Assembly: GCA_018668595.1 (NCBI GenBank)
Contig: JABJCP010000035.1
Location: 124,001-188,000 of the forward strand
Direction: 5' to 3'
Length of the DNA stretch: 64,000 nt
Source of the DNA: Candidatus Woesearchaeota archaeon
GTDB lineage: Archaea; Nanobdellota; Nanobdellia; Woesearchaeales; UBA11576
The translations under genes were made by a program, and so were the position numbers. The notes below the pieces were generated by a model. The model was not told the origin of the DNA. It saw only the letters and a list, made by a program, of their open reading frames with translations, and searched no databases. Every line of letters begins with the position of its first letter. The stretch's first letter is position 1. Below are positions 1-38,990 of this stretch, piece by piece.

Positions 1-1
1 A

Positions 2-346
2 AATAATAAATTTACAAATCCGCGTCATAGATTTAGTGTTGGTTATCAAGTTAATTCTATTTTCTTATTTAATAAATATCCTAAAAATAAAATTAAGTTT
101 GATAAATGTATGGATGTTGGTATTAGTCCAAAGATAAAAGATTTAGTAATTCATTATGGGAATGCTAAGGGTTCAAGACAAACTCAAGTTGAAATCAAAA
201 ATTTGGAAATAAAAAACCTTGTCCACAACCAAGATGCAAGGAATCAATACAATGAAATTATTCAAATTGCAAACACAATGAAAAATAATTCGCTTGAAGA
301 AATTGAAAATAAAATTAAAAAAATTAAGGAGTTATATAACAATTAA
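2..346 (+). CDS. C-terminal part of a ninth solenoid-array paralog (5' truncated by window edge)
   Basis: The reading frame is open from base 2 to the TAA at 344-346, so the start lies outside the window. The 114 visible residues end in a charged helical tail (NSLEEIENKIKKIKELY) like the tails of the following array members, and the next member starts one base after the stop. Membership is inferred from position, strand, base composition and tail. The diagnostic N-terminal peptide and the 24-residue repeats are not visible, so it could be an unrelated gene of the same operon. Confidence 0.6.
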   Translation, partial: NNKFTNPRHRFSVGYQVNSIFLFNKYPKNKIKFDKCMDVGISPKIKDLVIHYGNAKGSRQTQVEIKNLEIKNLVHNQDARNQYNEIIQIANTMKNNSLEEIENKIKKIKELYNN

Positions 347-347
347 A

Positions 348-1502
348 ATGACACAAACAAACTTATCACTAAAAAAACTGCAAGGTATTAAACCTAAAGG
401 AGTAAAGCAAGCAGATAAAACTATTCAGAAACGGATTGTTTTGTTATGTTCTGAAATGGTTGATAAATATTCTAATAATCCTGAATTAGGATCTGTTCAG
501 TCAGACATGTATGTAGCTGTTGAAAAATCATTGAGGGATTTGGATTTTGGAGAAAAAGAATTAACTCAATATATTCATTCAAGATTTATTAGAAATGAGA
601 CTGAAAACAATGAACTTTATTCAGGAATTTTCTCAGGTTGCCTTTTAGAACTTCTTTGCAGGCGTGCAGATGTAAGAAGAGAAAAGTTTAATTTTTACAT
701 TGATGGTAAAGGTAAAGAATATAATAAGATTTTTTTCCAAGCTAACTTGGTGCATGAGTTAACTGTAGAAAATTTTAAGGGAGACTATTTATGCGGAGTA
801 ATTGGAGGGCAGGGTGGTCGAGCAGATGCGATTAATATTGTTAACTGTGAAGGTTATGGTCCTGGCGCTCAAGTTGCTCAGCATGGTGGAATTTTAAAGT
901 CGTTGAATATTATTAATCATTCTGGTGGTGGTTGTGCTATTGCTGCAGGAGCTCAAACTAAATTAATTGAGGAAATAAATATATTAAATTCCCAAGGATC
1001 TTGGAATGGTGCTCAAATTGGTATGCAGGGAGGCACAGTTAAGCGAGTTAGAATTTTAAATAATAAGGGAGATAGGTGTGCTGCTTACTTAGGTGATTAT
1101 GGTGGTTGTATTGATTCTTTGATTGTTATTAATAGTGAAGGAGATAAACTTGCAGATACGCACGATACATCACTTAATTTGGCGTATTTAGACTATGCTC
1201 TTTTTCATAACATTTCTGGAAAAGATCTCTTAAATCATTTCCAAACAGGAGATTTAATTCAAGGTCAAAACGCAAAAGAATGTTATGATTTTATTAGTAA
1301 CTATATTCTTAAAAAAGCAGATAATCGTTTTGGAATACAACATAAATTAGATTTAAACCAAACTTTAGATTCATTCAGACACAAATCTTATGATGAAATA
1401 AAAAATATTTTCACTGAATTGAATTATGCACTAATGAATTATGAAGCATACGAACTAAGTGTAAGACTAAAAAAGCGAAAAAAACTAGAAGAATTAAAAT
1501 GA
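348..1502 (+). CDS. Array paralog 1: leader peptide + helical domain + 24-residue solenoid, 384 aa
   Basis: Function unknown. Residues 1-20 carry the array leader (NLSLKKLQGIKPKGVK). Residues 21-115 look helical and contain YSGIFSGCLLELL, followed by FYIDGKGK near 117. From about 142 to 265 a regular repeat appears: N-x-x-G motifs at residues 142, 166, 190, 214, 238 and 262, exactly 24 apart, each followed by an Ala/Gly-rich stretch, GG and an Ile/Leu/Val strand. That pattern fits a parallel beta-helix with 24 residues per coil (inference). The frame extends upstream to 294, but the ATG at 348 is chosen because the leader begins there in every paralog and the previous gene ends at 346. No signal peptide or membrane segment. 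Closest sibling by eye is the gene at 3715. Its stop overlaps the next ATG (ATGA). Confidence 0.9.
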   Translation: MTQTNLSLKKLQGIKPKGVKQADKTIQKRIVLLCSEMVDKYSNNPELGSVQSDMYVAVEKSLRDLDFGEKELTQYIHSRFIRNETENNELYSGIFSGCLLELLCRRADVRREKFNFYIDGKGKEYNKIFFQANLVHELTVENFKGDYLCGVIGGQGGRADAINIVNCEGYGPGAQVAQHGGILKSLNIINHSGGGCAIAAGAQTKLIEEINILNSQGSWNGAQIGMQGGTVKRVRILNNKGDRCAAYLGDYGGCIDSLIVINSEGDKLADTHDTSLNLAYLDYALFHNISGKDLLNHFQTGDLIQGQNAKECYDFISNYILKKADNRFGIQHKLDLNQTLDSFRHKSYDEIKNIFTELNYALMNYEAYELSVRLKKRKKLEELK

Positions 1503-2524
1503 AACAAACACAAACAAATCAAACAAATACAAACCAAACTAATTTAGCACTCAAAAAACTGAAAGGTATTAAGCCTAAAGGAGTTAAAACTAATCAGAGT
1601 TCTAAATTAAAAAAATTAATTGATTTATGCGATTCTTCAATCGAAAAGTATTATTCTAGTTCTTCAAATAAATCTATGAGGAATTTTGTGGGTGCAGATT
1701 TAACTAAGGAATACACTTTAATCGGCAGAGAAATAGAACAGTCCAAAATAGAATTTAATGAGAATGAATTAATTGATTTTATTTTTTCTAAAGCTAATTC
1801 TGATTTAGATGACAGGTGTAGTAAGTTATTAGGAACATTCACTAGTTGTCTTCTTCATTTGTTAACAGCTCGAAATAATTATAAGCAGATTCATACTCGT
1901 GTTTATATTGATGGAGATGGTAGTTCTTTTGATTATTTATTTTATGGTGCAAGAAATGTAGATAGGTTAATTATTGATAACTTTGTTGGGAAAAATATAG
2001 CCTGTAATGTGGGTTATATGGATGGTTCTGCTAATGTTTTAGTTGGTAGGAATATTAAATCAATTTCTGCGCTTAGTGCTTTTGGACAAAATGGAAACGG
2101 AGGTTTACTAGTTGGTTGTAATATTAAAGGGCAGTCACCATTGAGTTTTGCAGGAAGTTTTTTTGGTAATGCGGGGATGATTGTTGCAAAAGAGGTTATT
2201 GGTTCTCTTGCTTTAGTTACTGATGAAACTCATTTTAGAAGAACTTATGATTTATTAACAATTGAAAAAGATCAAAACAGAGACTTTACCATTTACGAAA
2301 TTGATATAAGAAATAATAAAACATCCCGGGATAAATTTCAAAGATTTGCAAATATTTCTTCAAAAAAATTGTGCGAGAATTGTGGTTGTGATTCTAAGTT
2401 AATTAATTACTATCAAAACATATTTGAATTAACAGATCATCTTCCAGATCTTGATAAAAAAGAATTAATAGATACTGTAAATAAAATTTATGAAAATTAC
2501 ATAAAAATAAAAAATATAAAATAA
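1499..2524 (+). CDS. Array paralog 2: leader + short solenoid + Cys cluster, 341 aa
   Basis: Overlaps the previous gene by 4 bases (ATGA), implying coupled translation. The leader is preceded here by a low-complexity QTN-rich stretch (residues 3-15), so NLALKKLKGIKPKGVK sits at 15-30. The helical part contains LLGTFTSCLLHLLT (110-123) and VYIDGDGSSFDYLFYGA (135-151). The solenoid is shorter than in its siblings, about 161-240, with NFVG, NIKS, NIKG and VIG turns. Unlike the others, the C-terminal tail has LCENCGCD (near residue 285), a compact Cys cluster that could bind metal or form disulfides. It ends in a Lys/Ile-rich helix. Unknown function; family membership is certain from the leader and body motifs. 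Confidence 0.9.
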   Translation: MKQTQTNQTNTNQTNLALKKLKGIKPKGVKTNQSSKLKKLIDLCDSSIEKYYSSSSNKSMRNFVGADLTKEYTLIGREIEQSKIEFNENELIDFIFSKANSDLDDRCSKLLGTFTSCLLHLLTARNNYKQIHTRVYIDGDGSSFDYLFYGARNVDRLIIDNFVGKNIACNVGYMDGSANVLVGRNIKSISALSAFGQNGNGGLLVGCNIKGQSPLSFAGSFFGNAGMIVAKEVIGSLALVTDETHFRRTYDLLTIEKDQNRDFTIYEIDIRNNKTSRDKFQRFANISSKKLCENCGCDSKLINYYQNIFELTDHLPDLDKKELIDTVNKIYENYIKIKNIK

Positions 2525-2533
2525 AAAAAGAAA

Positions 2534-3664
2534 ATGAATCAAACTAACTTAGCACTTAAAAAACTGCAAGGTATCAAACCTAAAGGAGTTAAGACTAAAG
2601 ACCTGTCTAAACTTGATAATCTTTTATTCGATTATAGAGATTTTGTAGATCATTGTGACTCTGTTGGAATGCGCAATCAAGTTAAGATGATGCATTTAGG
2701 AACAACTCATTATCCTCAAAGAAAAGATTTTTTTGTAAAGCATGATATTGTCAAAGAAGACACCGAAAATTTTATTAAATTAGTGTCTGATTTGGATCTT
2801 GACGATGCCGAAGCTTTTTACACGGGATTGTATTCTGGTCTTTTACTAAGTCATTTAACTGAGCTTGAAAGAAAGAAAGGAAGTTCTGCTAAAATTTATT
2901 TTAATGGACATGGAAGAAAGTTTGATTATTTATTTGCTCGCGCTCCTCATGTTGATAAGTTGATTGTTGACAATTTTTGTGGAAATAATATTCTTTTACT
3001 TGCAGGAAATACTAAATCTTCTACAGATTATGTTCTTGTAAATAATTTATCAGGATCAAATAATTTGGGAGTTGTAGATTTTGGAAATATTGATTTACTT
3101 ATTGCAACAAACTGTAAAGGTGATGAACTTGCAGCAGATGCAATACCTATGTCGTCTAAAGTTGGAATGTTAATTGCAGATAATATTGAGGGTAATTTTG
3201 CACTTAGTAGTGTTGGATTTGGAGGGGGGGCTTGCGGTATTGCTATTGTAAATAACATAAGAGGTAATGGCACTCTTGGAGATTTCGGGGCTAGTGGAGG
3301 ACTTTCAAATCTTGTTTATGCACAAAATATAGTTGGTTCACACATTTTGTATGAGTCAAAAGGAAGTCCTATTTCTGAAGCATTTGATTATCCATTAAAT
3401 TTAGTGCTTTGTAAAAATATTGCAGGAAGCTTTGCAGAAAAAAGACGTAGAATAGACAAATTGGTGGAGTTTGAAAAAGATCCAATTCAGTTTGACGAAA
3501 TCACTAAAAAATATAGAATAAATGAAGTTCTCAACCAAATTAATTCAATCAAAACAGTTGATGAGTCAACATTTGATATCTTGGACAAAATTCAAAGAGT
3601 ATATTTAGAATTAAAACCTAACTTAAAATACTTAGAAAACAAGAAACGTTATGGAGAAGAATAG
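2534..3664 (+). CDS. Array paralog 3, 376 aa (sister of the gene at 4878)
   Basis: Starts 9 bases after the previous stop with no Shine-Dalgarno, only an A-rich tract. The leader NLALKKLQGIKPKGVK is at 4-19. The helical domain reads RDFVDHCDS ... TGLYSGLLLSHLTELERKKG, then FNGHGRKFDYLFARAPHVDKLIVDNF leads into about five or six coils with NxxG turns (DNFCG, NNLSG, TNCKG, DNIEG, NNIRG, QNIVG). The tail contains IKTVDESTFDILD, almost identical to the gene at 4878, so these two are recent duplicates, while 348 and 3715 form another pair. Alternating pairs suggest block duplication (inference). Function unknown. Confidence 0.9.
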   Translation: MNQTNLALKKLQGIKPKGVKTKDLSKLDNLLFDYRDFVDHCDSVGMRNQVKMMHLGTTHYPQRKDFFVKHDIVKEDTENFIKLVSDLDLDDAEAFYTGLYSGLLLSHLTELERKKGSSAKIYFNGHGRKFDYLFARAPHVDKLIVDNFCGNNILLLAGNTKSSTDYVLVNNLSGSNNLGVVDFGNIDLLIATNCKGDELAADAIPMSSKVGMLIADNIEGNFALSSVGFGGGACGIAIVNNIRGNGTLGDFGASGGLSNLVYAQNIVGSHILYESKGSPISEAFDYPLNLVLCKNIAGSFAEKRRRIDKLVEFEKDPIQFDEITKKYRINEVLNQINSIKTVDESTFDILDKIQRVYLELKPNLKYLENKKRYGEE

Positions 3665-3714
3665 TATGATAATAATCATAATAATCTTAATTAACTAAAC
3701 AACCTAAAAATAAA

Positions 3715-4860
3715 ATGACACAACAAACAAACTTAGCACTTAAAAAATTGCAAGGCATCACGCCTAAAGGGATTAAAGCAAATCAAGATAGCTTAGCTTC
3801 AAAAAGATTAATAGATTTAGGTTCAAAAGAAGTTAAAAAATATTCTAGTTTTGTAGATGTAGGTGTTTTTCAAAGAGCTATGTATCGAGATGTCGAAAAA
3901 GAATTAAGAGATTTTGAATTTGGAAAAGAAGAATTAGATCAGTTTATTAGATGTGGTATTATTAATTCTTTTGAGGGTAATGAATCTAAAGTGTTTGGAA
4001 CTTATTCTGGTTGTTTGTTAGAACTTCTTTGTAAACGAGCAGATTTAAGAGGAGATCGATTTAATTTTTACATTGATGGTGAAAATAATAAATTTGATTA
4101 TCTTTTTTTTGAAGCAAATGTAGTTCATGATTTAATTATTGAAAATTTTACTGGACATAATTTGTGTAGTGAAATTGCTTCAGGAGAAGGTAGAGCAGGT
4201 AATATTTCTATTGTTAATTGTGCGGGAGACAATGCAGGTGCTACAATCGCAAGACATAAAGGAGTTGTAAATTCAATTAATATAATAAATCATAAAGGAG
4301 AGTGTATATTATTTAATGCAGGAATTATTTGTGATATGATTAATAAAATTAATATTTTTAATTCTAGTGGTTATTTGATGGGTGATAGACTGGGTTCTAC
4401 AAAAGGAAATATTAAAAGAATAAGATTTGTAAATAATGAGGGAGACGCGTCTTTACATCATTTAGGGTATTTTACAGAAAGTATTAATTCAGTTTGTTTG
4501 ATACAAAATAAAGGAAAATTTAGTTTTGGCGCAAGTGGTTCAAATTCAAAATATGATGTAAATTCTATGCTTGTTCATAACTGTGATGTTGAATTCAAAA
4601 AGAACTTCAAACCAAAGAAGTTAATAACAGATGTTTTTGCAGAGAATGATTATAATTATTTATGTAATCAATTCAAATTTTTTATGTTAAGAGATTATGT
4701 TATAGAATCAAGAAAAGAGCAAGTTGATTTGATCCAGTATGTAGATTCATTTAAAGATAAATCTTACAAAGAAATTGAACCTTATTTTAATTGTATGCGT
4801 AATGCTTTTTCAAGTTTAGAAAAATTAATTAATGAAAGACCAAAACAGATATGGGAATAG
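3715..4860 (+). CDS. Array paralog 4, 381 aa (sister of the gene at 348)
   Basis: Begins 50 bases after the previous gene. The leader has two substitutions (NLALKKLQGITPKGIK). The body follows the 348 gene closely: MYRDVEKELRDFEFGKEELDQFI, YSGCLLELLCKRADLRGDRFNFYIDG, then NFTG, NCAG, NHKG, NSSG, NNEG and QNKG turns about 24 residues apart. The latter half of the solenoid is less Gly-rich and less regular than in its sister, suggesting relaxed sequence constraint with the fold kept. The C-terminal tail is helical (FKDKSYKEIEPYF). No signal sequence. Unknown function. Confidence 0.9.
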   Translation: MTQQTNLALKKLQGITPKGIKANQDSLASKRLIDLGSKEVKKYSSFVDVGVFQRAMYRDVEKELRDFEFGKEELDQFIRCGIINSFEGNESKVFGTYSGCLLELLCKRADLRGDRFNFYIDGENNKFDYLFFEANVVHDLIIENFTGHNLCSEIASGEGRAGNISIVNCAGDNAGATIARHKGVVNSINIINHKGECILFNAGIICDMINKINIFNSSGYLMGDRLGSTKGNIKRIRFVNNEGDASLHHLGYFTESINSVCLIQNKGKFSFGASGSNSKYDVNSMLVHNCDVEFKKNFKPKKLITDVFAENDYNYLCNQFKFFMLRDYVIESRKEQVDLIQYVDSFKDKSYKEIEPYFNCMRNAFSSLEKLINERPKQIWE

Positions 4861-4877
4861 AAAATAAATTAAATAAA

Positions 4878-6023
4878 ATGACACAACAAACAAACTTATC
4901 ATTAAAAAAACTAAAAGGCATCAAGCCTAAATGCGTTAAGACTAAATCTGAATCTAGATTGTCTAAACTTGTAGTAGATTGTAGAGATTTTGTTGGCGAG
5001 TGTAATAGCAAAGAATTAATTCATACTATGGAGTGGATTAGAACTAATCTTGATCGCCATCCAAAAAGAAAAGAATTATTCAAAAAATTAAATATAACCC
5101 AACCAGACCTCGAAAATTTTATTGATATAATGTCTGATTTGATGCTAGACTGCGAAGAGTCTAATTATACAGGTATTTATTCTGGGTTTTTACTTGATTA
5201 TCTTAGTGAACAAGAAAGAAAAAAAGGTCAACCATCTAAATTCTTATTCAATGGAACTGGCAGATCATTTAATTATCTATTTGCTAACTCAAAAAAAATA
5301 GATAGACTTATTTTAAATAATTTTAAAGGAGATAATGTTCTTTATTTAGCAGGTAGAGATTTAGAAAATCCAGCTAATTATATTTATGTTAATAATTTAG
5401 TTGGTAATCAGAATATTGTTTCATCAGGTTCTACGTTTATTGATTTACTTGTTGGAACTAATTGTTCAGGAGAGGGTTTTATGCGTGGTGCAGGAAATTT
5501 AATGGGAAGAATTGGTTTACTAGTTGCAGATAATATTAAAGGTAATTTAGCTCTTGCAAGTGTTGGTGGGAGAGGGGGTAATTGTGCATTTACTATTGCT
5601 ACTAATATTGAAGGCGAATCAACTCTTGCTGATTTTTGTGGTAATTTAGGAGATTCTAATTTTCTTTACATGGAAAATATTGAAGGACCGGATATTTTAA
5701 GAAAAGATGAAATAGAACGCACATTTCCAGGACTTAACAAACCATTAGATTTAGTTGCTTGTAAAAATGTTAAATTTGGATCGAATGAATATAGATTAGA
5801 TATAAATAATTTAGTAGAATACAAAAAACAAAAACAAAAATTCAATGAATTAAAAAACAAATACAGAGTTGAGGAAATATTAACTAAAGTCAGATCTATT
5901 AAAACACCAGACGAGTCAACCTTTGATATTCTCGACGATCTCAACAACATTTATGTTAATATGTATGAACAAATTCCAGAATCAAAAAAGAAAAAACAAA
6001 AAATAATAAATAATAAAAAATGA
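4878..6023 (+). CDS. Array paralog 5, 381 aa
   Basis: The frame opens at an ATG at 4851, but the ATG at 4878 is preferred because MTQQTNLSLKKLKGIKPK then aligns with the family leader; here the second-to-last leader Gly is Cys (PKCVK). The middle contains TGIYSGFLLDYLSEQERKKGQ and FNGTGRSFNYLFANSKKIDRLI, then turns NFKG, NNLVG, TNCSG, DNIKG, TNIEG and ENIEG. The tail IKTPDESTFDILDDL matches the 2534 gene. The stop overlaps the next start by four bases. A helical C-terminus rich in Lys ends the protein. Unknown function. Confidence 0.9.
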   Translation: MTQQTNLSLKKLKGIKPKCVKTKSESRLSKLVVDCRDFVGECNSKELIHTMEWIRTNLDRHPKRKELFKKLNITQPDLENFIDIMSDLMLDCEESNYTGIYSGFLLDYLSEQERKKGQPSKFLFNGTGRSFNYLFANSKKIDRLILNNFKGDNVLYLAGRDLENPANYIYVNNLVGNQNIVSSGSTFIDLLVGTNCSGEGFMRGAGNLMGRIGLLVADNIKGNLALASVGGRGGNCAFTIATNIEGESTLADFCGNLGDSNFLYMENIEGPDILRKDEIERTFPGLNKPLDLVACKNVKFGSNEYRLDINNLVEYKKQKQKFNELKNKYRVEEILTKVRSIKTPDESTFDILDDLNNIYVNMYEQIPESKKKKQKIINNKK

Positions 6024-7303
6024 ACCAAGCATTAGCACTTAAAAAACTGAAGGGAATTAAACCCAAAGGAGTTAAAGTTAGAGATCAAACTAAATTTGAA
6101 CAGTTATTTAATTTAGCTAAGATTGTTATGAGTGGGTTTAATCAAGTTAAGCCAAATAAGTTCCTAGATATAACGTTTAAACAAAATTTTGATGTTGTGT
6201 ATGATCAAGTTAAATCAGTTTCTGATTTTTCCAAAAATGATCTTGAAACTTTTGTTTTATCTTTATCAGGTGATATTGAGGATCATAGTGAAAATACATT
6301 TAGTGATATTTATTTTGATGATAACAAAAAATATGTTTTAGGTTTATTCACTGGAGCTCTTCTAACTGTTTTAACAAAGAGAAACATTAAACAAAACAAA
6401 AAAACAATTATTAATATCGACGGAAATAATCAACGGTTTGATTATTTATTTGCAGGTGCAAGGCAAGTCGATCAATTAGTTTTAAAAAATTTTAAAGGAG
6501 AGGGCATAGGGCAGCATTTAGCAGCTTTTGATGGCTGTGCAAATTTAGTTAAGTTTAGTAATTTAAAAGGAAATAGTATTTTATTTAGGTCTGCATATGG
6601 AGGTAATATGGATATTCTTCATGTAGAAGAAATCAAAGGAGATACTTGTATTTATGGTGTTGCTTCAAATAAAGGCAGTGCTAATTTAGTTATTGCAAAA
6701 AATATTGAAGGTTCTTTGGTTGGTGCTCATTTAGCAAATGATGGAGGTAAAGTTAAATTACTTTTAATTGAGGATGTATTAGGTGATGAAATTTTAGGGG
6801 GATTGTATAGTCAATATTTAGATAAAACCTTTATTGATTTAGTAATTTCTCGCCGTGTTGGAAAGAAAATATTGGAAGATTCTCATCCATTTAAAGGATT
6901 GACATACAAACTAGCGTCTGATTTATTATATTTTGAAGATTCTGATCCTACTGAAATTGAAAATATGAAATGGGCAAGATTCTTTCACGCTTCAACTAGA
7001 TCTTGTGATTTTATAATTAGTACTGCTTGTAATAATGCAAGTTTAGATCTTGATTTTTTTGGTTTTTTGGAAAATAATAATTTAAATATTTACTCTTCTA
7101 AATTTGGTAGAGGAGATCTTATTGAGGAGTATTATGGATATTTTTATGGTAAATCGAGTGATATGTCTAGGTTTAAAAGTAAATTAAAGCAAAAAAATAT
7201 TCCTGAATTATTAAGTGTAATTAACACCATTAAAGGTAATGATTATGAATTTTTGCTAAACCAAGCCAATAAAATAAAACAAATAGTGAAATACAATAAA
7301 TAA
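6020..7303 (+). CDS. Array paralog 6, longest member, 427 aa
   Basis: Starts within the previous stop codon (ATGA). It has the shortest leader lead-in: MNQALALKKLKGIKPKGVK. After the helical region (VLGLFTGALLTVLTKRN) and INIDGNNQRFDYLFAGARQVDQLVL come clean coils with turns NFKGEG, NLKGNS, EIKGDT, NIEGSL and DVLGDE, 23-24 residues apart, each with a GG or DG ten residues later. It is longer than its siblings because of an extra Phe/Tyr-rich segment after the solenoid (around 310-390) containing FGFLENNNLNIY. That insertion is not seen in other members. Unknown function. Confidence 0.9.
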   Translation: MNQALALKKLKGIKPKGVKVRDQTKFEQLFNLAKIVMSGFNQVKPNKFLDITFKQNFDVVYDQVKSVSDFSKNDLETFVLSLSGDIEDHSENTFSDIYFDDNKKYVLGLFTGALLTVLTKRNIKQNKKTIINIDGNNQRFDYLFAGARQVDQLVLKNFKGEGIGQHLAAFDGCANLVKFSNLKGNSILFRSAYGGNMDILHVEEIKGDTCIYGVASNKGSANLVIAKNIEGSLVGAHLANDGGKVKLLLIEDVLGDEILGGLYSQYLDKTFIDLVISRRVGKKILEDSHPFKGLTYKLASDLLYFEDSDPTEIENMKWARFFHASTRSCDFIISTACNNASLDLDFFGFLENNNLNIYSSKFGRGDLIEEYYGYFYGKSSDMSRFKSKLKQKNIPELLSVINTIKGNDYEFLLNQANKIKQIVKYNK

Positions 7304-7365
7304 ACAAACAATAAACAGCAAAAAATAAAAAATGATCAAAAGAAACAAAAAATAATAAATAAAAA

Positions 7366-8616
7366 ATGATCCAAGCTCAAACAAATCAAACAAATACTAA
7401 TCTTTCATTAAAAAAGTTGAAAGGTATTAAACCAGTAGGAGTTAAAGTTAAACCAGAAGACAAAGGTAAAGCTTCTCAGTTAATTAGCATGTTTGATTTA
7501 ATGTTAGAAAAATACGAGTTTCGTCTTGTTGAAGATTATCACAACAAAGATTTCGAAGTTAAGAAAAATATATATGATGAATTAAAAAATGATTTTTTCC
7601 AAGATTTTGATTTTTCTGATTCTGTCTTGCAAGAATTTATTCTGAGAGTTGATTCAGAAAATTTATCTCGACGAGGTGAACGAATTTTAGGTTCTTACTC
7701 TGGTTGTCTTTTGGAATTTTTAACTGAAAAAAACAAACTTACTGGCAAAAGAACAAGAGTTTACATTAACGGAATTGGTAAAAAATTCAATTATTTATTT
7801 TGGCGCGCTAAACACATTGATGAATTAATCGTGGATAATTTTGAAGGGAGAGATATTTGTGCTAGAATTGCTGAGTATGATGGTTCTGCTAATGCAGTTA
7901 TTGTTTGTAATTCTATTGGTGGAAACATATTAGATTACGTCGGGCATGGGCGCGCTAAGGTAGGGCTTGTCGCGTCAATTAATAATATTGTTAAAGGCAG
8001 TGATTGTGGTGGTGTTGGTTCTGATGGCAGCCAAACTGGTTTAATTGCGTTAATTAATAATAAAGGGAACGCAACGTCTGAGACTGCGGGCGCAGGCACA
8101 AGTAATCTTGGTTCTATTCTTTGTCTAAATAGTTCTTACTCAGAAAAAGATCATCCTATTGCTCAAAACGCAGGTATTAGTATTAGTAGATATCAATCAG
8201 CATTTATTCTATTTACTTATCTTAATTCTAGAGGATATCCGTTGGGTTCTAATGGTTATTCTCTTCCAAAAGTTAGACCAACTCTTTTAAGTTATCCTAA
8301 ATTAAGAGGATTTCAAGCTCAAAACAATAAAGATGATAAAGATACATATAAAAAAATAATTAACCTAGGAAATAGTATGAAGTCAAAAACTGGTTTAGAG
8401 ATTAAAGAAATTTTAAAAGAGCTACTAAAAATATACAATCCATTATTTCAAAAAAGTGCGCTCACATTCAAAAATTCTTGTTATGAAAAAGTAGGCGATT
8501 CATATTTATTTGAGAAAAAAAAAGATTGTCAAGTTATTCCCTCACCAGAACAAGTCAACGATGTAATTAATCATTACAACAAAATGCAGGAATTATTCAC
8601 TGAACCTAATCAATAA
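7366..8616 (+). CDS. Array paralog 7, 416 aa
   Basis: A 62-base A-rich gap precedes it. As in the 1499 gene, a short QTN-rich stretch comes before the leader (NLSLKKLKGIKPVGVK). The body has SYSGCLLEFLTEKNKLTGKRTRVYINGIGKKFNYLFWRAKHIDELIVDNFEG in order, then coils that become unusually rich in Gly/Ser/Ala (VGHGRAKVGLVAS, GVGSDGSQTGLIALINNKG, SETAGAGTSNLGSILCLN). Around 8221-8460 the pattern stops and a Pro/Tyr-containing segment and a charged tail follow. Local GC is slightly higher in the Gly-rich coils. Unknown function. Confidence 0.9.
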   Translation: MIQAQTNQTNTNLSLKKLKGIKPVGVKVKPEDKGKASQLISMFDLMLEKYEFRLVEDYHNKDFEVKKNIYDELKNDFFQDFDFSDSVLQEFILRVDSENLSRRGERILGSYSGCLLEFLTEKNKLTGKRTRVYINGIGKKFNYLFWRAKHIDELIVDNFEGRDICARIAEYDGSANAVIVCNSIGGNILDYVGHGRAKVGLVASINNIVKGSDCGGVGSDGSQTGLIALINNKGNATSETAGAGTSNLGSILCLNSSYSEKDHPIAQNAGISISRYQSAFILFTYLNSRGYPLGSNGYSLPKVRPTLLSYPKLRGFQAQNNKDDKDTYKKIINLGNSMKSKTGLEIKEILKELLKIYNPLFQKSALTFKNSCYEKVGDSYLFEKKKDCQVIPSPEQVNDVINHYNKMQELFTEPNQ

Positions 8617-8631
8617 AATTATTATAAAAAA

Positions 8632-9801
8632 ATGAACCAAACTAATCTATCATTAAAAAAACTCAAAGGCATCAAGCCCAAAGGAGTTAAAACTAAAACC
8701 AGCTCCACTTTTGAAATTTTGTTAGAAACTGGTTTTAATTTTGTTTCAAAATATGAGGGGTTTGTAGGAATGATGGCATATCCTCATCAACTAGTTTCTT
8801 TGCGAGATAAACTTTGTGATGATTACTTAAATTCGTCTGTATCTGAATTAAAATTTTCAGAGAAGAATTTAATAGATTTTCTCAAATCAAGAGATTATAA
8901 AGAACATTCTAAAACCGAAACTGTTATTTTTGGTTTGTATTCTGGTTTATTGTTAAATAGTCTCACCAAGAGAAACAAACAAATCAATAAACGAACAATT
9001 ATTCAATTAAATAATTTAAACTATGACTATTTATTTGCTTATGCAAAAGATATTGACACAATTATTTTAAACAATTGCAAAGGTGAGCAAATTTTATCGG
9101 GTGTTGGCAGAGATTCAGTAGTTAACAATATAATTGTTAATAATTTTGAAGGAGAACATCTTATGACTGATACTGCGTCTAATGGTAAAGCTAATTTTGT
9201 TTGGGTTGATGGTTTTAAAGGTAATGATTTGGGTTACATGCTTGCTGTTGATGGAGGGAGTATAGATTTCATGCACGTCCAAAATTTTGATGGTACTTTT
9301 TTAGGTTTAAGATTTGGATTTGGTAATAAAGAAAATGGTTTTATTAACGTCCTTTCTCTTAAAAACATTCTTTCCGGAGGGGATTTGATGTATATGCTTT
9401 ATGCTAAACGGATTTTTATTGACAACATGCGTCCTAAAAGTCCTCAGCATTATTTTAAAAACATAACTGCAGATGAATTAATAATAAAGAATTCTGATAC
9501 AAAATATTCTGGTTTAGATAGAGATTGGTCTAAGATTGAGGATCATAATTATGTCGGTACGCAAAAACCAAGAATAAAACAAGTATCCAAGGGATTATTG
9601 GCAATTCCTAAATATAGGAAAGTCTCAAAAGAATATAAAATAAAACAACTAAATAATATTATCTCCAATTATTTTAAAAATTCAACTCAAGATCCAGAAA
9701 AATTTATCAAATCAATGGAATCAATCAAACCTAACTACCAAAATCTATTAAATAATTTTTACAAAAAATTATCAAAAAAAAATATTAAAAATGATATTTA
9801 A
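8632..9801 (+). CDS. Array paralog 8 (last of the array), 389 aa
   Basis: Leader NLSLKKLKGIKPKGVK at residues 4-19. The helical part contains FGLYSGLLLNSLTKRNKQ and IQLNNLNYDYLFAYAKDIDTIIL. Turns NCKG, NFEG, GFKG and NFDG are 23-24 residues apart, with VDGGSIDFMHV as a model coil; the last coils are bulkier (GLRFGFGNKENG). The protein ends in a Lys/Asn-rich helical tail. A convergent small gene begins nine bases after its stop, so this is the 3' end of the array operon. Unknown function. Confidence 0.9.
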   Translation: MNQTNLSLKKLKGIKPKGVKTKTSSTFEILLETGFNFVSKYEGFVGMMAYPHQLVSLRDKLCDDYLNSSVSELKFSEKNLIDFLKSRDYKEHSKTETVIFGLYSGLLLNSLTKRNKQINKRTIIQLNNLNYDYLFAYAKDIDTIILNNCKGEQILSGVGRDSVVNNIIVNNFEGEHLMTDTASNGKANFVWVDGFKGNDLGYMLAVDGGSIDFMHVQNFDGTFLGLRFGFGNKENGFINVLSLKNILSGGDLMYMLYAKRIFIDNMRPKSPQHYFKNITADELIIKNSDTKYSGLDRDWSKIEDHNYVGTQKPRIKQVSKGLLAIPKYRKVSKEYKIKQLNNIISNYFKNSTQDPEKFIKSMESIKPNYQNLLNNFYKKLSKKNIKNDI

Positions 9802-13830: not shown

Positions 13831-14616
13831 TTAATAATTATCTTTTAGTTTTTCTTTCTCTTCTTTTAAGTTAAAATGTTTGGAAATTGTTTTCATAACT
13901 TTTTGAAACGTAATTGGTTCTGATATTAAAGGAATCAAATCTTCATTCCATTTTTTATGAAGTTTTTTTGCGCGATTAAACATTTTAATAATGTTAAACT
14001 CATCTCCTGATTGTTCACATTTTTTCTTAACTAAATCCAAATCAATTTTAATTCCTTTGGAAATAATTTGATAAAGATCGAAATGATCGCGAGGTTTATT
14101 CCTTCCTATTGTCGCAGCCATTTTTTCTGCAATCATTTCATCAGGATCTAGGATGTAACAAGAAAACTGAGGGATAAAATCGGGATAAAAATGTGGAACT
14201 TCTTTTTTTACAGGCTTGAGATTCAGTTTAGCTCTCGAGTTCAAATCAATAAATATTGTGCCTTGGTTCATAAATGGATCTGTGAAATTAACCGTTAATC
14301 TCGTAAATTTGTAAACTTGTTTATCTTTGGTTATGTTTCCGAATAGTTTACTTTGTCTAATAACTGTTTCAATTTCTTTTATTAATTCATTAAGTTCTCT
14401 TGTTACTGTAAAATCAATATCTTCACTTAATCGAGAATAGTCTAGTATTATTTTTTGCAAAGCAGTACCGCCTTTAAAATAAATTCCTTCGATGTTTTGC
14501 ATAAGATAAAGTAGAACTGTGATGTAATAATCTTTAGCTATTAGTCTCTGGTTGAATTTTGATTCTGCAGAAATTTCAATCAAATCATATTTATCTATGT
14601 TCTTAATTTCATCCAT
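13831..14616 (-). CDS. abiEii: AbiEii/AbiGii-family nucleotidyltransferase toxin, 261 aa
   Basis: Signature residues of the family are present: FKGGTALQK (47-55), a variant of the GSx nucleotidyltransferase turn; RLSEDIDF (62-69) with the metal-binding acidic pair; and the downstream LDPDEMIAEKMAA and RDHFDLYQI blocks. Family members are toxins of type IV toxin-antitoxin/abortive infection pairs that transfer nucleotides to tRNA 3' ends (family knowledge). The start overlaps the end of the AbiEi gene by 22 bases, the usual antitoxin-toxin order. Length is normal and no key residue is missing, so it appears active. Confidence 0.9.
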   Translation of the reverse strand: MDEIKNIDKYDLIEISAESKFNQRLIAKDYYITVLLYLMQNIEGIYFKGGTALQKIILDYSRLSEDIDFTVTRELNELIKEIETVIRQSKLFGNITKDKQVYKFTRLTVNFTDPFMNQGTIFIDLNSRAKLNLKPVKKEVPHFYPDFIPQFSCYILDPDEMIAEKMAATIGRNKPRDHFDLYQIISKGIKIDLDLVKKKCEQSGDEFNIIKMFNRAKKLHKKWNEDLIPLISEPITFQKVMKTISKHFNLKEEKEKLKDNY

Positions 14617-15095
14617 TTTTCTGCCTCTTTTTTTGAAATTATTTTAAAATCGTGCTCTGAACTTTTTTTAGTGATTGATTTGTTTACTTTGTTTTTAGTA
14701 GTTCTATGGAAAACAAAACGATTATTTAGGATGTTTATTTTGCCTTGTCTTTGAGTTGTGTAAATATCGATTTGTAGGGGAATTTGATCTGTAAGTCTCC
14801 AAAAATTTGCAGCAGCCCATCCGCCAATAAAATAATTTTTTCCATCAAACATTTCGTCTGCTATTGTGAATGGATCGTCTGTCCATTTTCCTTTTCTTGC
14901 TTTAATCGGAATAAGAAAATATTTTTTTTTGCTTAGCTTTACTATTCGTCCTTTCTTACGCAGAGTGTATATTGTATTGATCATTTGCTTATTATTTGCA
15001 AAATGTTTTTCTATGTCGTCTGTGGTGAAGTACTGTTTTTTTCTAAATTCTAGATCTGCAACAACCTTTATTTCCATATTAGATAGTCCTTTCAT
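14595..15095 (-). CDS. abiEi: AbiEi-like antitoxin/transcriptional regulator, 166 aa
   Basis: Lies immediately upstream of the toxin and overlaps it. The N-terminus is a winged helix (YFTTDDIEKHF ... INTIYTLRKKGRIVKLSKKKYFLIP), followed by the AbiEi body with YFIGGWAAANFWRLTDQIP, a motif common in this family. The frame stays open to 15209, but the extra residues read through intergenic and direct-repeat sequence, so the ATG at 15095 is chosen; an ATG at 15077 is the next alternative. The protein should repress its own promoter and neutralise AbiEii without direct binding (family knowledge). Confidence 0.85.
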   Translation of the reverse strand: MKGLSNMEIKVVADLEFRKKQYFTTDDIEKHFANNKQMINTIYTLRKKGRIVKLSKKKYFLIPIKARKGKWTDDPFTIADEMFDGKNYFIGGWAAANFWRLTDQIPLQIDIYTTQRQGKINILNNRFVFHRTTKNKVNKSITKKSSEHDFKIISKKEAEKWMKLRT

Positions 15096-15199
15096 AATTA
15101 ACACCCAAATCTTAAATATTAAGATGTAAATGTTATTGATATTTAAACTTTTCGCTTTTTTGATAGAATATTGTAAGCAACCGAATAGTGTGTGGTTTA

Positions 15200-15273
15200 A
15201 AAAAAACAACTACTGATTACGCAACTAGTTGTAGAATCGCTCTTAACAACACTGTAAAGAAAAAGAAATAATA
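15200..15273 (+). repeat. Right copy of the 74-bp direct repeat (orphan ligase gene end)
   Basis: Second copy of 13680-13753. The reading frame of the ligase tail is intact here, including the TAA, but two neighbouring codons changed (Ile-Tyr to Ser-Cys) and there is no gene body upstream. This marks the right edge of the AbiE island. Confidence 0.9.
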
Positions 15274-38152: not shown

Positions 38153-38551
38153 ATGGCTGAACAATTACAAGCAGGATTGGACACGTGGAATTTATCTATT
38201 GACGAAATTATTAATAAAGTTAGTGATGTTGTTGTTTTGAAAAACTCAAATTCTCGAGGATATTTTGGTCAATATACTACAGAGTATGAAGCTTTAGTAA
38301 AAAATGAAGAGACTAATCTTGTTGTTTATGTTAGAAAACAAAGATTGATTCGAGATCCTGATAGAGAAAAAGATAAATCTAAACATACTTCTTTACGTAC
38401 TATTTTATTCAAACCTTATTTTGGGTTTACTCATGTTCCTACTGGACACAATGCAGTTGCAGTAGATCTTCAAAAATATTTATCTCAAAAAGGATCTAAA
38501 AAACTTTTCAAAGCATTAGAACAAAGATATTTAGAACAAACAAAGGAATAA
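38153..38551 (+). CDS. Unknown protein, tandem paralog A, 132 aa
   Basis: Shares with the next gene the blocks LKNSNSRG(Y/G)FG, YTTEYE, YVRK(Q/H)R, RDP(D/S)R and KYLSQK(G/E)SKKLFKA, so the two arose by tandem duplication. The strand-rich middle (NLVVYVRKQRLIRDP) and C-terminal amphipathic helix suggest a small alpha-beta fold. Begins 20 bases after the previous stop. Function unknown. Confidence 0.75.
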   Translation: MAEQLQAGLDTWNLSIDEIINKVSDVVVLKNSNSRGYFGQYTTEYEALVKNEETNLVVYVRKQRLIRDPDREKDKSKHTSLRTILFKPYFGFTHVPTGHNAVAVDLQKYLSQKGSKKLFKALEQRYLEQTKE

Positions 38552-38552
38552 A

Positions 38553-38990
38553 ATGACTGAAGGATTTGACTTAAAATTAGAAGATTATGATTTAACTATT
38601 GATAAGCTTGTTGATAAGCTCAAAGATACTGCTGTCACAAAAAACTCGAATTCTCGGGGAGGTTTTGGCCCGTATACTACTGAGTATGAAACTTATTTTG
38701 ATTTTGGAGAAACTAAATTTACTCTTTATGTTAGAAAACATAGATTTACTAGAGATCCTAGCAGAGATGAAGATCCTGATGGGGGTAAAAGAGCTTCTTT
38801 AAAAAATCTGTTGATCCGACCTTTATTTGGAGTTTTTAACAGGGTAGAAAACAAGGAATTAATACTTCCTGTCAAATATTTATCTCAAAAAGAATCTAAA
38901 AAACTTTTCAAAGCAATGCAAACACAATATGAAAATCAAACACATGAAATGCATGCAGAAATAAAAAAATATTGGGGTTTTGAAAAATGA
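38553..38990 (+). CDS. Unknown protein, tandem paralog B, 145 aa
   Basis: Second copy of the duplicated pair. It keeps KNSNSRGGFGPYTTEYE and KYLSQKESKKLFKAM and adds a C-terminal HAEIKKYWGFEK extension. The end overlaps the next start (ATGA), implying coupled translation. The SR-G-x-FG and YVRKxRxxRDP blocks are the most conserved between copies and are the likely functional core. Confidence 0.75.
   Translation: MTEGFDLKLEDYDLTIDKLVDKLKDTAVTKNSNSRGGFGPYTTEYETYFDFGETKFTLYVRKHRFTRDPSRDEDPDGGKRASLKNLLIRPLFGVFNRVENKELILPVKYLSQKESKKLFKAMQTQYENQTHEMHAEIKKYWGFEK

Follow-up and report, generated by a model that had tools for sequence, protein, structure and literature searches.

The window analysed here is a stretch of 64,000 nucleotides (C22:124001-188000) in the 2.32-Mb draft genome of a Candidatus Woesearchaeota archaeon (G000). 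Its first 9801 nucleotides hold a tandem family of proteins that all open with the same short N-terminal leader (also called the tag here), followed by a body with solenoid coils. The first-pass annotation had read this part as eight complete genes (341-427 residues) and the 3' end of a ninth on the + strand, and this gene structure was confirmed. Nine genes proved to be an undercount. When the array was delimited by a genome search with one member, by reading of the contig and by a family-profile search, it comprised about 75 related genes on one strand (+), at C22:51348-133801. It spans 82 kb, takes up 3.6% of the 2.3-Mb DPANN genome and reaches 73 kb upstream of window base 1; the genes in the window are its end. 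The annotation had also advised looking at the genes upstream of base 1. Besides the rest of the array, these include genes for an AAA+ ATPase and for a protein with a HExGH motif and a von Willebrand factor A (vWA) domain (together called the machine here). It is from these two genes and the rest of the array that the window finding gains its meaning. The features are as follows.

C22:49610-51082, upstream of the window, directly before the first array gene: MoxR-type AAA+ ATPase (Pfam AAA_3, E 3e-8)
C22:72009-74108, inside the array: protein with HExGH and a C-terminal vWA domain
Window 1..346, + strand: 3' end (114 residues) of the preceding array member; the whole gene is C22:123234-124346
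Window 348..1502, + strand: array member P0002, 384 residues read from the ATG; its structure was modelled
Window 348..407, + strand: leader of P0002, MTQTNLSLKKLQGIKPKGVK; low predicted local distance difference test score (pLDDT, ~45)
Window 675..1217, + strand: predicted solenoid of P0002 (residues ~110-290), one strand per 24 residues
Window 1499..2524, + strand: array member P0003, 341 residues
Window 2534..3664, + strand: array member P0004, 376 residues, within the window nearest to 4851-6023
Window 3715..4860, + strand: array member P0005, 381 residues, within the window nearest to 348-1502
Window 4851..6023, + strand: array member P0006, 390 residues; a second possible ATG, at 4878, immediately precedes the leader
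Window 6020..7303, + strand: array member P0007, 427 residues
Window 7366..8616, + strand: array member P0008, 416 residues
Window 8632..9801, + strand: last array member, P0009, 389 residues; the following gene is on the opposite strand

The array genes are closely spaced. All 71 ordinary junctions, that is, those outside the HExGH-vWA gene (72009-74108) and a disrupted stretch near C22:116945-118059, fall between -53 and +62 nucleotides with a median of 0, and all genes are on the + strand. This spacing suggests a polycistron. Truncated or frameshifted members make up the disrupted stretch; few other parts of the array looked degraded. Outside the array, contig C9 breaks off within a cluster that shows at least three more family members, and a solo family gene stands at C22:195687-196604. 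In the flank of the C9 cluster (L038:2740-7127), two large open reading frames on the opposite strand encode 868 and 566 residues and have similar N-termini.

The leader common to all members is NLALKKLKGIKPKGVK. Family statistics for the leader, the NxxG motif and hydropathy were computed over 76 members on C22. Between these members the 15-residue leader is 85% identical, and the bodies are 22% identical. The annotation was right to call the leader conserved: both lysines, the leucine and the glycine of KKLxG are invariant in 76/76 members. A degenerate codon pattern for KKLxGIKP matched the genome 71 times, always within the family and on the coding strand, with 0 matches for the control. 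The C9 and solo copies bear the same tag as the array. The mean net charge is +5.6 for the leader and -5.1 for the body, and the tag in this genome contains no acidic residue. A query with the leader against named genome contigs found no relative. Hydropathy revealed no signal-peptide-like or transmembrane segment in any of the 76 members, in agreement with the earlier remark that a signal peptide is absent. The codons of the leader are themselves unusual. Its L-x-G-I-K codons (for example, at window 348-407) have 53% G+C at third positions as opposed to 17% in the bodies, with CTG, GGC, ATC and AAG enriched, and the third bases of neighbouring leader codons covary as synonymous haplotypes. 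An RNA hairpin under these codons was rejected, as no fold signal was found (mean z -0.38) and the third-base covariation is haplotype-like with A-A mismatches.

The bodies are repetitive. In the first complete protein, NxxG occurs exactly at residues 142, 166, 190, 214, 238 and 262, as annotated. The 23-24-residue period claimed for the other members also holds, with 89 of 216 successive NxxG spacings equal to 23 or 24 (mean 1.6 and maximum 6 in 200 shuffles). An AlphaFold model was made of one member, P0002 (pLDDT 85, predicted template modelling score 0.85). It consists of a disordered leader, four helices up to residue 109, solenoid strands at residues 134-287 and a helical tail, which is the order of parts that had been proposed. 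Eight-residue strands begin at residues 134, 158, 182, 206, 230, 254 and 279, one per 24 residues. A β-helix of the pectate-lyase type is one possible reading of this solenoid: the model has a single strand in each coil, and the weak Foldseek matches of P0002 are a mix of leucine-rich repeat (LRR) and pectate-lyase folds. Nothing below E 0.001 was found with Foldseek in the Protein Data Bank (PDB) or among viral models (BFVD); the best PDB match had E 0.19. The array family had no Pfam match above cut-off, and its architecture matched no NCBIfam or PADLOC family at significance. An assignment as an LRR protein was rejected on the lack of a Pfam match, the coil asparagine being followed by xxG and the lack of a significant Foldseek match. 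A PDB sequence search gave nothing for the AAA+ and chance-level matches only for the vWA protein and the array family.

Only one AAA+ and one vWA protein of this kind were found in the whole genome. Walker A (GxxGxxKT) and Walker B (DE) are conserved in the ATPase, which belongs by these motifs and its AAA_3 match with the MoxR clade. The AAA_3 match is above cut-off for this ATPase and below it for its counterpart in a genome of another family (G065). The partner protein had no Pfam vWA and no Pfam peptidase match. Foldseek of its low-confidence model retrieved vWA domains, and the DxSxS-T-D pattern of the metal-ion-dependent adhesion site (MIDAS) is present in the archaeal loci. HExGH and the MIDAS residues DxSGS, T and D are invariant in four archaeal loci; HExGH, DxSGSM, GGGT and one D are invariant in eight more distant loci. 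HExGH and an invariant downstream aspartate would suit a zincin; the N-terminal half, where the putative peptidase would lie, is modelled mostly with pLDDT below 50. PADLOC returned no convincing match for the machine or the array proteins that were scanned.

The machine is not confined to this genome. Around a dozen further Nanoarchaeota-type genomes and one bacterial metagenome-assembled genome (MAG) have it too, with 1 to about 10 tagged paralogs each. Among 371 genomes of the phylum, the AAA+ is present in 9, the vWA protein in 13 and both in 8 (hypergeometric p 1.4e-12, ignoring relatedness). The AAA+ and the solenoid family occur together in 6 of the 371 (p 4.9e-9, again ignoring relatedness). 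An AAA+ search of named contigs gave four loci: a Woesearchaeota archaeon, two other archaeal MAGs and a bacterial MAG labelled Brevinema andersonii. In G065, the AAA+ and the HExGH-vWA protein are 50% and 44% identical to those described here. Nine tagged members are present; the AAA+ gene comes first and the vWA gene stands among the tagged genes, as in the Woesearchaeota array. The array proteins of G065 are about 15-21% identical to P0002, far below the machine genes.

The tag differs from locus to locus. In ten profiled loci and in the present one, members of a locus share a conserved first 20-residue block, which differs between loci (for example, GIEKREKKE, FDDLKGIKEREIKRRE, GIEGPRDVQ, GKPEEKK, YVPERVEE and GEPKAREEN). 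The N-terminal block is the most conserved, or nearly so, in most loci; another block equals or exceeds it in G065, L092, G269 and G127. Orphan homologues in two genomes (G023 and G263) have no recognisable leader, and no AAA+ or vWA protein of this type was found in either genome. The association of tag and machine is supported mainly by the locus-specific tags, the leaderless orphans and the tagged copies in trans on C9.

Two of the other loci deserve a separate description. The bacterial MAG contig (L095) carries an AAA+ gene, one solenoid gene and a HExxH-vWA gene, in which asparagine replaces the MIDAS threonine. The C-terminus of its solenoid protein is a hydrophobic-rich stretch that reads as two membrane helices. 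In G346 (L089, L090, L097, L098 and L099), the 5' end of an AAA+ gene was found in two nearly identical copies and the solenoid family in three fragments. Each of these pieces runs into a contig end, which suggests that the assembly was broken by an array. A virus origin was rejected, as no relative was confirmed when viral contigs were scanned with alignments of the AAA+, the vWA protein and the family.

The history of the array differs from what was first supposed. Neighbouring array genes resemble each other no more than distant ones do, and the flanks of close pairs are 0.223 alike, against a background of 0.216. Thus, the copies did not arise, or did not stay, as blocks. The two sister pairs named in the first-pass annotation are nearest to each other within the window (body identity 0.38 for 348/3715 and 0.44 for 2534/4878), but the block duplication deduced from them is not supported. 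Amplification does not appear to be ongoing either: the nearest pair is 82% identical with a synonymous divergence (dS) of ~0.30, and members have a median identity of 33% to their best partner. For close pairs, the ratio of replacement to synonymous substitution (dN/dS) is ~0.3-0.5, and the genes are therefore maintained proteins. Positive selection on the solenoid was rejected because dN/dS is below 1 in the solenoid and in the other regions.

Three further features lie near the array or in the window. About 4 kb downstream of the array (window 13831-15209, - strand) is an AbiEii toxin-like nucleotidyltransferase (Pfam E 7e-29) with a weak AbiEi-like partner. A PIN-domain gene (C22:48563-48994; L054:3563-3994) lies a short way upstream of the AAA+ gene. 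At window 38153-38990, an adjacent pair of paralogous genes encodes 132 and 145 residues, the first without a Pfam match.

The reading that we favour builds on what the computation gives directly, namely the array, the tag and its locus-specificity, the conserved neighbourhood and the predicted fold. It is a three-part cytoplasmic system made of a MoxR-clade AAA+, a HExGH-vWA protein and a repertoire of tagged solenoids (75 in the array and at least four elsewhere). In established vWA-AAA+ pairs, the vWA protein captures the target, which is then remodelled by ATP hydrolysis (PMC9976466; PMC7159879). By analogy, the vWA-peptidase, bound to the AAA+ ring, would recognise the short, basic and disordered N-terminal tag. 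ATP hydrolysis would remodel the tagged protein and lead to its release, activation or loading. The tag might be clipped in the process, perhaps by the HExGH domain; both binding and cleavage are predictions from sequence and models. The solenoid bodies would diversify for different partners, with the tag keeping each member readable by one machine. That the bodies diverge and the shared tag is protected is in keeping with a repertoire bound to stay compatible with one machine. In this sense, the suggestion in the annotation of a modular recognition or assembly system agrees with the results, in that diverged solenoids share one tag. On balance, we consider it probable that the locus-specific tag gives a single AAA+/vWA-peptidase machine its hold on a diversified repertoire of solenoids, perhaps as a conflict system. 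The weakest step is the purpose. By analogy with other MoxR-vWA systems, which have variable third components, it is most likely biological conflict, with recognition of foreign or partner molecules.

Several points weigh against this reading. The peptidase is assigned by motif, with neither a Pfam match nor a confident model for that half of the protein. An arms race would be favoured by an excess of replacement changes in the solenoid, and none was seen. The AbiE pair and the PIN gene are near, and there is no clear defence island. For NorD-type vWA domains, an acidic residue of the target is proposed as a ligand of the MIDAS metal (PMC9976466); the tag described here has none, so another vWA contact would be needed in this genome. 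Finally, the substrates at distant loci show weak homology to the solenoid family (hhalign probability 32%, 36 columns). Given this weak resemblance, these substrates may form a second subtype, or the machine may serve clients there that are unrelated to the family.

Other explanations use the same observations. The solenoids could build a large structure, cytoplasmic or cell-associated, with the AAA+/vWA pair assembling or loading its subunits and the tag serving as an assembly handle instead of belonging to a recognition repertoire. Known MoxR-vWA pairs (NorQD and RavA-ViaA) remodel and mature complexes, machine and substrate genes adjoin, and the bacterial homologue has its apparent membrane helices. 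However, an assembly chaperone has no obvious need for 75 paralogs that are 22% alike in one genome and for 2 in another, and we regard it as unlikely. The tag could also be a degron, through which the AAA+/zincin-vWA pair degrades or clips the solenoids and so controls their amount or switches them on. The invariance of HExGH across loci and the N-terminal, disordered tag would suit this, but MoxR-vWA pairs are usually non-degradative and the peptidase, which matches no Pfam peptidase model, is putative; this explanation seems improbable.

Two further explanations concern the genes rather than the machine, and both appear more improbable still. A cassette reservoir for antigenic or phase variation would make the shared 5' end, with its unusual codons and synonymous haplotypes, the homology for recombination. 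Against this, the genes are mostly complete and in tight polycistronic order, with no distinct expression site and no signal peptide or transmembrane segment. Close pairs show no clear mosaic, their identity is only moderately variable along the length, and distant copies carry the tag too. The least probable is neutral or selfish tandem amplification of an ordinary gene. In its favour, the family is absent from the only other sampled genome of the genus, and the genome that carries the array is larger than those of sampled relatives. This explanation is already disfavoured by purifying selection with few disrupted genes among ~75 old, diverged copies, by the conserved tag and by the recurrence of the family beside the same machine in other genomes.

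An array of ~75 paralogs on a single strand calls for an explanation, and the pairing of tag and machine gives a testable one. A bolder version of the favoured reading, which we put forward tentatively and consider less likely than not to hold in full, is that of a new kind of archaeal system, in which an AAA+/peptidase-vWA machine reads the locus-specific tag of a germline repertoire of up to ~80 diversified cytoplasmic solenoid receptors. If so, new specificities would be added by gene duplication, with the tag preserving compatibility with the machine. If the pairing of tag and machine is correct, it would add one more MoxR-vWA system, this one with a repertoire addressed by a tag, and would do so in archaea with reduced genomes, about whose defence and host interactions little is known. 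One peptide and one protein pair would then be open to direct binding and cleavage assays.

Targeted searches of open-access papers found none on this array. The nearest known systems are the MoxR-vWA ternary conflict systems (Kaur et al. 2020, PMC7159879), which likewise have a MoxR AAA+, a vWA protein and a variable third component at one locus, and for which peptide capture by the vWA protein was also proposed. DPANN, Woesearchaeota and Nanoarchaeota do not occur in the main text of that paper. Its VMAP, iSTAND, FtsH and β-propeller third components were not among the Pfam, NCBIfam and PADLOC matches of the AAA+, vWA and array proteins. The VMAP-type MoxR motifs WxhapG and PsWRxa were not seen by eye in the aligned N-terminal regions (no motif search was run). 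Because the ternary systems are defined by third components that were not found here, the present system would be a variant within the MoxR-vWA kind. It differs from them in the N-terminal HExGH of the vWA protein and in the many paralogs with one locus-specific tag. NorQ-NorD and RavA-ViaA (PMC9976466, PMC10585395) share the MoxR AAA+ ring, the partner with a C-terminal vWA MIDAS and the remodelling of dedicated substrates. They differ in serving one or few enzyme complexes without a tagged paralog array, and their partner is not described as HExGH. Putative antigen sensors diversified by diversity-generating retroelements (PMC10907252) also place diversified putative sensors on MoxR-like AAA systems with a proposed role in defence. 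Their diversity comes from a reverse transcriptase and that seen here is spread over dozens of gene copies; no search was aimed at such retroelements near the array. LRR and pectate-lyase-type solenoids have the ~24-residue repeat with an asparagine and a strand per coil, but the array family has no Pfam or significant Foldseek match. Judged by its sequence motifs, the machine is of the MoxR-vWA kind; the tag-addressed repertoire might possibly represent a new kind of system, a suggestion that we make with some doubt.

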